Assembly: GCA_017309275.1 (NCBI GenBank)
Contig: JAFKLT010000048.1
Coordinates: 1 to 64,000, forward strand
From: Sphingomonadales bacterium
GTDB lineage: Bacteria; Pseudomonadota; Alphaproteobacteria; Sphingomonadales; Sphingomonadaceae
Direction: 5' to 3'
Length of the DNA: 64,000 bases
Part shown: positions 59,464-62,774 of the stretch, in pieces
Layout: each line of letters begins with the position of its first letter
Position numbering within the stretch: position 1 is the stretch's first letter
Notes under the pieces: generated by a model
Database searches by the model: none
The model's input: the letters and a program-made list of their open reading frames with translations, nothing else
What the model was told of the DNA's origin: nothing
Program-made: the position numbers and the translations under genes

Positions 59464-60054
59464 TCAACTCGCGAGGCTGCGGAAGGTGATCGACCAGCGC
59501 GCCGTCTCGATCGGCGCGATGCTATGTTCCCACGCGTGCCGCGCTTCGCCGGTGAAACGATAGATCGAGCGGGGCGCGAGCGGCAGTGCAAAGCGGTCGA
59601 ACTTGTCTCCTCGGCGGCGCCGGAAGCGCATCGCCGCCTCTGCTCCCAGCGAAATGCCGACGACATGCTCGAAGACGGGCCGGTCTTTATGCCAGCCGAT
59701 GCCGGCCCCGGGGCCGTATGAAATCAGCAGCGCCTGCGCGAGGGCGCCCGGCGGAAGTTCTGAAAAACGCTCGGCGCGAGCGGCGATCGGCGCGAGCCAG
59801 TCGGGGATCGGCGCGGCGCGTGCGAAAACCCCCGTCTGGAAATCATAGCTCCATCCGAATGAGCGGGTGAGGCGTTTGCCCTCCCATTGCTGGAATTTGA
59901 AGGCCTCGAGCCCAGCATGTTCGATATGGGCTATGAGCGCCGCTTCCTCGGCTTCCGTGACGAAGGCTTCGGCCGCTTCGAGACCGGGAAGCAGTGCACG
60001 GCCAAACAGATCGGCCTGCGCCGCGGCACTTTTGCTGACAGGGTTGTGTTTCAT
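59464..60054 (-). CDS. AlkB-like 2-oxoglutarate/Fe(II) dioxygenase
   Basis: 196 residues. HxD motif GWHKDRP, second His in WEHSI and 2-OG Arg in RWSITFRSL. Removes alkyl groups from DNA or RNA bases. It is preceded by a DUF6961 gene and a SRAP gene on the same strand, overlapping by ATGA, so a repair operon. Confidence 0.92.
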   Translation of the reverse strand: MKHNPVSKSAAAQADLFGRALLPGLEAAEAFVTEAEEAALIAHIEHAGLEAFKFQQWEGKRLTRSFGWSYDFQTGVFARAAPIPDWLAPIAARAERFSELPPGALAQALLISYGPGAGIGWHKDRPVFEHVVGISLGAEAAMRFRRRRGDKFDRFALPLAPRSIYRFTGEARHAWEHSIAPIETARWSITFRSLAS

Positions 60055-60230
60055 GTCCTTGCGAGTGCGTTCAGCTTCGCCGCGATCGCTTTCCAGCGCT
60101 CGACGCCCGCATTATCCCCCGCGAGCGCGAGCGCACCGATGCGCGCTGCGACGAAGCGCGGTGCGCCCGCTCCATGCTGCTTTTCGACGGCGAGGGCGCA
60201 GGCCCAGAGATGGCGGTCTTCGGTGAGCAT
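60051..60230 (-). CDS. DUF6961 small protein
   Basis: 59 residues (MLTEDRHLWACALAVEKQHGAGAPRFVAARIGALALAGDNAGVERWKAIAAKL), the DUF6961-type helical protein common in sphingomonads. It overlaps the SRAP stop (TGATG) and the AlkB start (ATGA). No function known to me; the operon suggests a link to repair. Confidence 0.8.
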   Translation of the reverse strand: MLTEDRHLWACALAVEKQHGAGAPRFVAARIGALALAGDNAGVERWKAIAAKLNALART

Positions 60231-60904
60231 CAGAGCAGGGTCGGCATATCGGGGAGCGGGGGCGACGTCCTGCCGCGGTTGCTCCAGGGGTCGTTGCTAT
60301 GCTCGGCAACGAGGCGGTCGCCCGGATATTTGCGCACGAGCCCGAATGCTTCGTCGGCGGGCGCGTGCAGCCAAGTCTCATGATCTTCGGGACGGAGGAT
60401 CACCGGCATGCGGTCGTGGATATCGAGCAGTTCCTCGGTCGCGTCCACCATCACGCCGGTATAGGCGTCGCCCCATTCGTCGGTGGGGCGCCATAGTCCC
60501 GCCCAGGCCGCAAGCGGCTGATCGGTGACGCTGACCCAGGTCTTCGTCATTGCGCCTTTTTCGCCGACGGCTTCGGCAAAGGCGGTGAACGGGATCAGGC
60601 AGCGATGCGCCGGCTGGGCAAACCATTGGCTCCACATACCATAAGGATTGAAGAGCTGATCGTCGCGTGCGTTGTTCGTCGGGCTCGGCTTGTTAGGCAG
60701 GCCCGTCTTCTTGCTTTTGGAGTGGCGCGGAAAACCCCAGGTCATCGAGCGCAGGACGCGCTTTCCCTGCTCTTCGCGGACGACCATGCCCGAATAGCCG
60801 GGATACACATCCTCGGCGCTGTTGAACGCCGGTACGGGGAGGTCGACGCCGAAATGCGCCGCAACCTCGGCCGCGCTTTTGCGCTCGGTGTAGAGATTGC
60901 ACAT
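60230..60904 (-). CDS. SRAP-family AP-site shielding protein (YedK-like)
   Basis: 224 residues. Cys2 (MCN) that cross-links to abasic sites, Asn78 in NNARDD, Glu111 in CLIPFTAFAEA and His163 in DIHDRMPVIL form the active set of HMCES/YedK. It covers abasic sites in single-stranded DNA. Overlaps the next genes downstream. Confidence 0.93.
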   Translation of the reverse strand: MCNLYTERKSAAEVAAHFGVDLPVPAFNSAEDVYPGYSGMVVREEQGKRVLRSMTWGFPRHSKSKKTGLPNKPSPTNNARDDQLFNPYGMWSQWFAQPAHRCLIPFTAFAEAVGEKGAMTKTWVSVTDQPLAAWAGLWRPTDEWGDAYTGVMVDATEELLDIHDRMPVILRPEDHETWLHAPADEAFGLVRKYPGDRLVAEHSNDPWSNRGRTSPPLPDMPTLL

Positions 60905-60964: not shown

Positions 60965-61624
60965 CTAGAGCAGCGCTTGCTGGGGCCGCGCGCTCGGCGG
61001 CAATTTGCCGCTGCGCCAAAGATCGTCGGTATGCTCGGCGACAAAATTTTCTGCGGGCGGTGGCGGACGAAACTGGAAGCCGATGACATCCTTGATCGAG
61101 CCGTGGAGCCAGCGTTCATATTCATGGGGCATGAGGAGGACGGGCATGCGATCGTTGGTGGGATGCACGAGCTCGTTCGCGTCCATCGTCATGCCGGCGT
61201 AAACGGGACCCAATTCGGGGGTGTTCTTGGCGAAGCCCGCCCAGGCCATGATCGGCTGGCCTTCGGCAGAGAACCAACTGCGTGTCTTCTCGCCCGGCGA
61301 GCCGTTGGGGTTCGCGAAGTGCGTCAGCGGAATGAGGCAGCGATAGCGGGGCTCGACGACGAGACCTTCCCACATCGGGTTGGTGAGATCGGCGACGAGG
61401 CCGATGCGGCCCGGCGGATCGCCGCGCAGCCGCATCTCGCGGGTGAGGCGCGGGAAGCCCCAGAGCATCTGGCGAAGGTGCCGCCGGCCGTTCGTTTCGT
61501 GGACGACGAGGCCGGGGAGGGCCTCGATCGTCTCCGAGGGAACGGCGATATCGGTAAAGCCGCCGGCGCCGAAATGATCGGCGACGTCCGAAGCCGTGGC
61601 GGCAAGGGTGTAGAGGCGGCTCAT
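60965..61624 (-). CDS. SRAP paralogue lacking catalytic residues
   Basis: 219 residues. The SRAP fold is clear (LWGFPRLTREM, CLIPLTHFA, MAWAGFA, DRMPVLLMP) but Cys2 is Ser (MSRLYTL), the Glu equivalent of Glu111 is Asn105, and the His equivalent is Asn157 (TNDRMP). It cannot form the covalent DNA link and is a pseudoenzyme candidate. Downstream of 61635-62078 by 10 bases, in a LexA-box operon. Confidence 0.88.
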   Translation of the reverse strand: MSRLYTLAATASDVADHFGAGGFTDIAVPSETIEALPGLVVHETNGRRHLRQMLWGFPRLTREMRLRGDPPGRIGLVADLTNPMWEGLVVEPRYRCLIPLTHFANPNGSPGEKTRSWFSAEGQPIMAWAGFAKNTPELGPVYAGMTMDANELVHPTNDRMPVLLMPHEYERWLHGSIKDVIGFQFRPPPPAENFVAEHTDDLWRSGKLPPSARPQQALL

Positions 61625-61634
61625 CTCTCGGGCT

Positions 61635-62078
61635 TCAGGCGAAAATCTTCGTCCATTTTTGGACTTGTTCCGCAAAGCTCGCCGGCTCGAATCCGAGACC
61701 GATCTCGGTTTCGACGAGCGGGGCGCTGCCGCCGGCGGCGTAGAAGCCGCTGATGTCGCTCTCGCCGAACGGGTCGAATTCCTGCGCCCAGCGATCGAGG
61801 GCGATTGCGCGCGCGTGGAGCGCGGCGCCGCCGTGATCACCGAGTCCCTGCTCGCGCGCGAAGCGCTCAAGCAGACGGCCATGCTCCGCAATGTCGCTGG
61901 GGCTCTTCACCACAAGATGCCGGATCGTCTCGATCGCGCGCGCGAGATGCGCGCCGGTGATATGGACCGCATTGATCGCGGCGAGAAAACCGCCGGGTGC
62001 GAAAAAATCATTGGCGGCAGCATGGCCGCCGATGCGGTCGTCACCTTCGGATCTGTCGAACGGGATTACGTCACCCAT
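61635..62078 (-). CDS. Hypothetical protein in an SOS-box operon
   Basis: 147 residues, no known domain (MGDVIPFDRSEGDDRIGGHAAANDFFAPGGFLAAINAVHITGAHLARAIETIRHLVV...). Helical middle. GAAAG precedes the ATG. It is the first gene behind a perfect alphaproteobacterial LexA box and precedes the SRAP paralogue by 10 bases. Confidence 0.7.
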   Translation of the reverse strand: MGDVIPFDRSEGDDRIGGHAAANDFFAPGGFLAAINAVHITGAHLARAIETIRHLVVKSPSDIAEHGRLLERFAREQGLGDHGGAALHARAIALDRWAQEFDPFGESDISGFYAAGGSAPLVETEIGLGFEPASFAEQVQKWTKIFA

Positions 62079-62114
62079 GGCCGGTCTTTCGTTGCGAGTC
62101 GGTCACGGAACATA

Positions 62115-62129
62115 GAACAAAAATGGAAC
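62115..62129 (-). promoter_or_regulatory. LexA SOS box
   Basis: GAAC-N7-GAAC on the plus strand (GTTC-N7-GTTC on the minus strand), the alphaproteobacterial LexA box. It lies 36 bases before the ATG at 62078. A further GAAC at 62108-62111 extends the repeat. Confidence 0.75.
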
Positions 62130-62153: not shown

Positions 62154-62774
62154 TTAGGGGTCGACGTCGGCGGGTTGAGGAACAAGGAAGAGCGTGCGGC
62201 CCTCGACGCGCCAGGCGGCGAGCTGCGACAGGAAATTCATGCCGAGCACATCCGTATTGCCGAGCGCGGGTGAGATCACGACCTTCAGCCGCTGTACCTC
62301 GATGGCGCCGACCGCGAGCGCATCGACCGTTCCGGCCTCGGCCCGCACCGTCCCGTTCGCGGTCTGCATCAGGAGCGGCAGCAGCGTTGCATCGGCCTCG
62401 ACCCCGGCTGCGCGGGCGGTCTCCTGCGATAGCGCGGTCACGGTGGCGCCGCTGTCGACGAGCATCCTTCGCTTGATGCCGTTGATTTCGGCATCGACCC
62501 AGAAATGTCCGTCCCGCCCCATCGGAATGCGCACCTCGCTGCCGACCACCTGCTGTCGATCGAGACCGATCGCAGAGGTGAGACGGCTGAGGTTCGGATC
62601 GAAGGGGGCCTGCTGAAGAATGAGGAAGATCGCGAAGGCGAGAAGCGCGAACCACAAGAGGCCGCGCAGCACGCGGCCGACATAGGGAATTTTGAACAGA
62701 AGGATCAGGACCAGTGCGGCGCCCGCCGCATAGATCGCGAGCTGTTCCCAAGGGAGATCGGTGGTGAGGGGCAT
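62154..62774 (-). CDS. Retropepsin-like aspartic protease (TIGR02281 family)
   Basis: 206 residues. Two membrane helices at the N-terminus (AIYAAGAALVLILLFK and LLWFALLAFAIFLILQ), then a periplasmic retropepsin-like domain with VDSGAT (catalytic Asp) and GNTDVLGMNFLS. Processes an unknown target. On the minus strand its gene ends just before the SOS box. Confidence 0.88.
   Translation of the reverse strand: MPLTTDLPWEQLAIYAAGAALVLILLFKIPYVGRVLRGLLWFALLAFAIFLILQQAPFDPNLSRLTSAIGLDRQQVVGSEVRIPMGRDGHFWVDAEINGIKRRMLVDSGATVTALSQETARAAGVEADATLLPLLMQTANGTVRAEAGTVDALAVGAIEVQRLKVVISPALGNTDVLGMNFLSQLAAWRVEGRTLFLVPQPADVDP

Follow-up and report, generated by a model that had tools for sequence, protein, structure and literature searches.

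Organization of the Locus

Near the end of the window, by which we mean the whole 64,000-nucleotide stretch of DNA analyzed here (positions 1 to 64,000 of contig JAFKLT010000048.1 from a Sphingomonadales bacterium, assembly GCA_017309275.1), lies a putative reverse-strand operon in which a SRAP paralogue with a degenerate active site, hereafter the dead SRAP, precedes an intact SRAP gene. The features are given below in the direction of transcription.

62154..62774 (−): retroviral-type aspartyl protease gene, upstream neighbor (PF13975, 80.6 bits)
62115..62129 (−): LexA-type operator GTTCN7GTTC (GTTCCATTTTTGTTC), an exact match whose position is kept in related loci
61635..62078 (−): leader gene, 147 codons, encoding an orphan protein limited to a Sphingopyxis group
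60965..61624 (−): dead SRAP paralogue, 219 aa (PF02586, 46.7 bits, and residue tables)
60230..60904 (−): intact SRAP, 224 aa (PF02586, 102.9 bits, and residues)
60051..60230 (−): DUF6961 family gene, 59 codons (PF22284, 59.7 bits)
59464..60054 (−): AlkB-like 2OG-Fe(II) oxygenase, 196 aa (PF13532, 64.7 bits)

The aspartyl protease gene (62154..62774) sits before the box and was left out of the putative operon. A preliminary description of this DNA, made from its letters alone, had placed a perfect LexA box ahead of the 147-residue gene, and indeed an exact match at 62115–62129 (−) lies 36 bp before the ATG of that gene. The dead SRAP starts, on the same strand, after a gap of 10 bp, and is itself separated by 60 bp from the intact SRAP gene, the last base of which is the first base of the DUF6961 gene; the latter is overlapped by the AlkB-like gene by 4 bp. 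The same description had noted a separate, active-looking SRAP at 60230. This gene is intact (102.9 bits) but it is not separate, since it lies on the same strand 60 bp 3′ of the paralogue, and 60904..60230 thus continues the putative operon. A known defence system was considered and rejected, PADLOC having no match for five proteins encoded in it.

Loss of the Cross-Linking Site

With 46.7 bits against PF02586 (gathering cutoff 27.1) the paralogue is a SRAP, a family whose Cys is described as invariant and as residue 2 in every case (PMC3765255). In the window's dead SRAP, Ser2, Leu76, Asn105 and Asn157 replace the Cys, Asn, Glu and His of the cross-linking site and Arg159 is kept; in the intact SRAP Cys2, Asn78, Glu111, His163 and Arg165 are all there. 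The changes of Cys2 to Ser, Glu to Asn and His to Asn that had been called beforehand are all borne out, and a fourth, Asn to Leu, had been overlooked.

One scan of genome contigs gave 38 loci with relatives of the dead SRAP. Dropping sequences with fewer than 180 residues to the first stop (L036, L037, L040 and L042–L046) left 31 dead sequences, the window's included, for comparison with 36 neighbor SRAPs from 35 loci and the window. In all 36 neighbors the Cys2, Asn, Glu and His columns read C, N, E and H. The same four columns hold, in the 31 dead sequences, S in 31, L or M in 30 and 1, N, D or Q in 29, 1 and 1, and N in 31, so that all four residues of the cross-linking site are replaced in each of them. 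The Arg two residues past the His is kept in 31/31 dead and 36/36 intact sequences; through an alignment to 1zn6 this position was equated with the Arg after the His that has been proposed as a DNA contact (PMC3765255). When 15 plasmid and five further genome copies (one of 164 residues) were added and the whole set was filtered at 90% identity, 29 dead and 25 intact SRAPs remained, and these divide by residue as before: the Glu column is Asn in 27/29 dead sequences, and residue 2 is Ser in 28/29 and Ala in one (L054). The replacement residues are nearly fixed in the dead clade. Its most constrained stretch, ADLTNP[ML]W, sits at the site of the former catalytic Asn, and segments WGFP, RC.I and R.P are common to dead and intact SRAPs. 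A check for another residue that might restore catalysis found no obvious substitute. The sole candidate nucleophile, position 132, is Cys in 27/29 dead sequences but Ala in the window protein, and was rejected, restoration by that residue being impossible here. As side observations, the SRAP at L056:1501-2118, which groups as sister of the dead clade (95/83) and is possibly an intermediate, has Cys2 and Glu, with Gln at the His position and, by eye, at the Asn position, and public annotation gives "protein-DNA covalent cross-linking" to the dead SRAPs of L129, L131, L133–L134 and L136–L141.

Published work on YedK, another SRAP, suggests what to expect of such a protein. Mutation of its active-site Glu, His or Asn reduces cross-linking and leaves DNA binding intact, the former being severely slowed in E105Q, slowed about 10-fold in H160Q and affected modestly in N75A (PMC9436759). 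The YedK C2A mutant has AP-lyase activity and cuts AP-DNA, and compared to it lyase activity is 25-fold slower in C2A/E105Q and 2.5-fold slower in C2A/H160Q (PMC9436759). Because the Glu, His and Asn mutants keep DNA binding, a dead SRAP that binds DNA without cross-linking it is plausible, and the natural combination of Ser2 with loss of both Glu and His is predicted to result in neither a cross-link nor strand cutting.

LexA-Type Boxes

The motif GTTCN7GTTC, which we take to be the alphaproteobacterial LexA consensus, occurs three times as an exact match in the window against 1.54 expected, and since three or more are found in 19 of 100 shuffles this number is not significant. Genome-wide there are 126 exact boxes, and the reversed pattern, as a control, occurs 65 times; chance alone produces many exact matches here. 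Box number alone was rejected as evidence, and only placement and conservation carry weight. Among the 38 related loci, 25 have a sense-strand exact box no more than 560 bp upstream of the dead SRAP (0.6 expected) and 15 have one no more than 120 bp upstream (0.12 expected); the expectations derive from the remainder of the same loci, which are not independent, several being near copies. The window's box thus lies at a promoter and is conserved in relatives. There is good support for a pseudo-SRAP that is conserved and belongs to an operon headed by a LexA-type box; damage induction of the pair would follow if LexA acts at this site.

The 147-Residue Leader Protein

Screening against Pfam, NCBIfam, PHROG and PADLOC gave no family match for the 147-residue protein, in keeping with the preliminary description, and no relative was found among the viral contigs or plasmids searched. 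Its gene is intact in six of the 38 loci (L009–L012, L014 and L033, five of them Sphingopyxis and one, L010, a Sphingomonadaceae isolate) and a remnant in a seventh, L013, the downstream dead SRAP of which is intact and 91% identical to that of the window; the remaining 31 loci gave no tblastn match. At L013:4440-5003 most of the gene is replaced by AT-rich sequence, and an exact box is lacking. Just two weak matches (E 6e-5 and 2e-4), both in long frames, came from 148 other family genomes, and both were rejected, the frame at L048 looking by eye like a GlnE-type adenylyltransferase and the match at L049 being read as chance. Comparison of the window with L012 gives dN values of 0.50 for the 147-codon gene, 0.03 for the dead gene and 0.035 for the intact gene, with dS values of 1.33, 0.55 and 0.41, respectively. 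As dS of the 147-codon gene is higher too, the gene may have been exchanged between lineages. Elsewhere, the box and the dead gene have no gene between them, or are separated by AlkB or by different small genes.

These data bear on the partnership that had been suggested for the 147-residue protein and the dead SRAP. In the window the two genes share strand and box at a distance of 10 bp, and they stand together intact in 6/38 loci, as a functional unit would; yet a leader that is fast-evolving, gives no tblastn match in 31/38 loci and none in plasmids, and has decayed to a remnant at L013 beside a dead gene that is still 91% identical, makes such a unit very improbable. In 15/38 loci the pseudo-SRAP has a box no more than 120 bp away. 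Co-occurrence, proposed as a check on the partnership, thus went against it.

Distribution of the Dead SRAP and Selection on Its Gene

The dead-SRAP module is rare and patchy. When matches at E 1e-40 are classed by their residues, six of 199 family genomes, among them the genome of the window, carry the window type; among 196 genomes in the order, the residue check left this genome and G235 only, and among 289 genomes in the class, at E 1e-55, this genome only. A phage origin was considered and rejected, as just three phage records match, at 24–32% identity.

Pairwise dN/dS values were calculated by the Nei-Gojobori method. For the dead gene they are 0.05–0.13 between the window and L011, L012, L013, L014 and L033, with zero amino acid changes between the window and L009; 0.02, 0.08, 0.10 and 0.19 in four other Sphingopyxis-group comparisons; and 0.10–0.23 in six pairs among other genera. 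The intact SRAP gives 0.02–0.14 between the window and L009, L011, L012, L013 and L033, and 0.42 against L014, the intact SRAP of which comes from another clade. That the paralogue is a decaying duplicate without function, as its missing catalytic residues and the broken or partial copies at 8/38 loci might suggest, is hardly credible in view of these values (at most 0.13 against the window copy), which show purifying selection, and of replacement residues that are nearly fixed across families.

The Intact SRAP Partner

All 30 intact dead genes among the 38 loci are followed on the same strand by a SRAP with all four residues, at a distance of −8 to 2381 bp and of at most 120 bp in 18/30. Of 15 intact dead plasmid copies examined, 13 (L129 included) have a full-length partner, the exceptions being L137, with a frame-broken partner, and L134, with no partner within the examined stretch. 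In two further genomes the surroundings differ: in G235 the neighbor SRAP, too, carries Asn in place of the His, and the nearest second SRAP match in G027 is 5.4 kb from the dead gene. In the tree the intact partners of the window and of L014 fall in different clades; as their dead genes are 80% identical, the dead gene stayed in position while the partner was exchanged, and the dead/intact pairing thus outlived a change of partner. The constant partner of the dead SRAP is an intact SRAP, often accompanied by ImuA-ImuB-DnaE2 genes.

Mutasome Genes and Plasmids

SRAP genes beside those of ImuA, ImuB and DnaE2 were already reported in 2013 (PMC3765255). We sought mutasome genes by tblastn with ImuA, ImuB and DnaE2 in flanks of up to 5 kb. 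Counted at dead-SRAP loci only, at least one of imuA, imuB and dnaE2 is present in 16 of the 38 genome loci, L033 qualifying solely through a DnaE2 stretch of 50% identity at its edge; none was found in such flanks at the other 22. On plasmids, 34 records match the dead SRAP, some via intact SRAPs, and 18 were examined. L132 and L144 are intact SRAPs and were excluded, L143 is a broken copy and was kept, and imuA, imuB or dnaE2 lies within 5 kb of the dead SRAP in 15 of the resulting 16 loci (again dead-SRAP loci only). Six annotated plasmids have the end of dnaE2 ("error-prone DNA polymerase") 10 bp ahead of the dead SRAP, preceded by imuB in all six, with imuA in five and beyond the examined stretch in one; the intact SRAP comes next in four, is frame-broken in one and absent in one. 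In other plasmids the dead gene and imuA point away from each other and have boxes between them.

The contig of the window (C49) carries these genes as well. Past the window edge, about 4.7 kb upstream of the operon and on the same strand, lies imuA-imuB-dnaE2 (66852-72449 region, about 72.4–66.8 kb); next to imuA is an exact LexA-type box (72435-72449). As a side observation, the genome encodes three DnaE2-like genes (C49, C74 and C25) that are 50–63% identical to a plasmid DnaE2, of which the one on C74 shares its contig with a dead/intact SRAP pair of the second type described below, and it has a further, more distant DnaE2 match (31%).

Other Dead SRAPs

The genome of the window has eight PF02586 SRAP matches and a ninth SRAP-like gene. 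Four of these have all four residues and five are without most of them: the window's dead SRAP and those on C32, C74, C44 and C79. The dead SRAPs on C32 and C74 constitute a second type, which is N-terminally different and has Lys at the His position; each dead gene lies ahead of an intact SRAP gene, and the first gene of the run has a box upstream. The dead SRAP on C44 is a third type, in which Cys2 is kept if the first start is right; its gene is divergent from that of an intact canonical SRAP, with a box between. The lone dead SRAP on C79 has neither an intact SRAP among the called genes of its 3.5 kb locus nor a box.

Strong matches to the second type (>120 bits) come from three of 199 family genomes and comprise four genes, all beside an intact SRAP. 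The third type yields strong matches (>230 bits) in nine of 199 family genomes, 9/9 paired divergently, across a box, with an intact-looking SRAP, and matches of 191–221 bits in two further genomes among 289 in the class, one with a box; an exact box thus lies between the divergent SRAPs in 10 of 11 loci (L089–L097, L119 and L120). In a maximum-likelihood tree of 67 sequences the window type is a single clade (100/99) within a background of intact SRAPs; types 2 and 3 group with each other in a different part of the tree (99/91). Because the tree contains flagged long branches, the cautious conclusion is that dead SRAPs arose at least twice.

Several single loci were also noted. The second type occurs in boxed gene runs at L002:1438-3185 and L003:418-2151, which are composed, in order, of a small gene (DUF6771 in L002), a 109-aa protein with several Cys, a dead SRAP and an intact SRAP. 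At L004 a third-type dead SRAP is likewise divergent from a canonical SRAP. A lone SRAP-like protein at L005:1477-2067 starts MNLYRL and lacks Cys2, with no intact SRAP among the called genes of the locus and no box.

Interpretation

Our preferred reading, to which we give a probability of roughly 45%, is that the dead SRAP is an SOS-induced, removable, noncovalent cap for abasic sites or single strands that works beside the covalent SRAP, probably together with DnaE2-type bypass. Under LexA control two SRAPs of different chemistry would be made together. The dead SRAP keeps the SRAP sequence frame, and with it presumably the detailed fold, as well as the Arg, and has lost the cross-linking-site Cys, Glu, His and Asn. 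As these residues are absent, it would cap AP sites or single-stranded template without a covalent bond, showing neither cross-linking nor AP-lyase activity of the kind that YedK gains by losing Cys2 alone. Such a removable cap might hold AP-site template for the SOS mutasome (ImuA-ImuB-DnaE2), with the covalent SRAP meanwhile shielding sites that are not to be bypassed or cut. Cross-links of HMCES have been modeled as barring nucleases and translesion polymerases from AP sites (PMC9436759).

The constancy of the intact SRAP admits another account, namely that the dead SRAP is a dedicated regulator that pairs or competes with the intact SRAP, limiting or reversing cross-linking, without direct link to a polymerase. 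The intact SRAP is the more constant neighbor, at 30/30 against 16/38 for mutasome genes, and the dead/intact pairs of the two other types carry LexA-type boxes as well. SRAP, however, acts as a monomer, and in the window lineage the intact partner was exchanged for one of another clade, a change that a specific dimer would resist; we consider a dedicated regulator unlikely, if deserving of attention. Counting against our preferred cap are the rarity of the module with its 8/38 broken or partial copies, the 22/38 loci with no mutasome gene in flanks of up to 5 kb, and the exceptions at G235, L134, L137 and C79; moreover, the paralogue could bind protein rather than DNA, its most constrained stretch, ADLTNP[ML]W, being located at the former catalytic Asn.

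The plasmid copies bring to mind a role in plasmid entry or establishment, in which the SRAP pair would shield incoming, abasic-site-bearing single-stranded DNA in conjugation. Twenty of the 34 plasmid records that match the dead SRAP (some of them being intact SRAPs) are typed conjugative, one dead copy is near relaxase and VirB genes and another near Trb genes; but the features that recur are LexA-type boxes and mutasome genes, which fit a damage response better, and we hold this role to be improbable. An own chemistry of the dead SRAP we likewise deem improbable: with Met removed, a free N-terminal Ser might form reversible Schiff bases or oxazolidines with AP aldehydes, rendering the protein a transient cross-linker. 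Residue 2 is indeed always small (Ser in 28 and Ala in one of 29 sequences below 90% identity), and both YedK C2A and C2S gave Schiff bases that were trapped with borohydride (PMC9436759). However, Schiff-base formation in YedK is driven by Glu105, being 10-fold slower in C2A/E105Q (PMC9436759), and at this position 27/29 dead sequences have Asn, with the His lost too.

The noncovalent cap that we prefer has parallels in the SOS response. To the SRAP family (PF02586, with E. coli YedK and human HMCES) the 219-aa window paralogue is tied by its Pfam match, by the shared WGFP, RC.I and R.P segments and by the LexA-type box, and it differs in that all four cross-linking-site residues are replaced. 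Like the dead SRAP, ImuB is an inactive paralogue retained as an SOS component beside an active enzyme, albeit of another protein family and with a proposed clamp-linked role (PMC11791113). SulA and ImuA, inactive RecA paralogues of the SOS response (PMC3765255), are likewise inactive paralogues serving as SOS effectors, but are unrelated to the dead SRAP in protein family and targets. Among the literature matches listed, as judged by titles and abstract openings and with subscription journals thinly covered, none concerns a dead SRAP paralogue or a dead/intact pair, and in PMC3765255, where the word "inactive" occurs five times, the passages found concern RecA- and polymerase-like proteins only.

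A broader proposition, possible but in our view doubtful, is that an SOS-controlled couple of abasic-site binders, one covalent and one noncovalent, has evolved repeatedly in bacteria. The noncovalent member, its whole catalytic site lost by fixed replacement, would be part of mobile mutasome cassettes and would determine whether an AP site on a template is shielded by a cross-link or stays accessible to mutagenic bypass. The SRAPs described so far shield abasic sites covalently and have an absolutely conserved Cys2, and public annotation credits covalent cross-linking to proteins without the residues needed for it. The conserved dead clade, encoded with an intact SRAP behind LexA-type boxes and found near mutagenic polymerase genes on plasmids, suggests a bacterial SRAP function that does not depend on cross-linking, and that a non-cross-linking SRAP may have its own job in damage tolerance. 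The dead SRAP would then be a natural separation-of-function protein, one that is also relevant to HMCES in that it may reveal the effect of binding without cross-linking.
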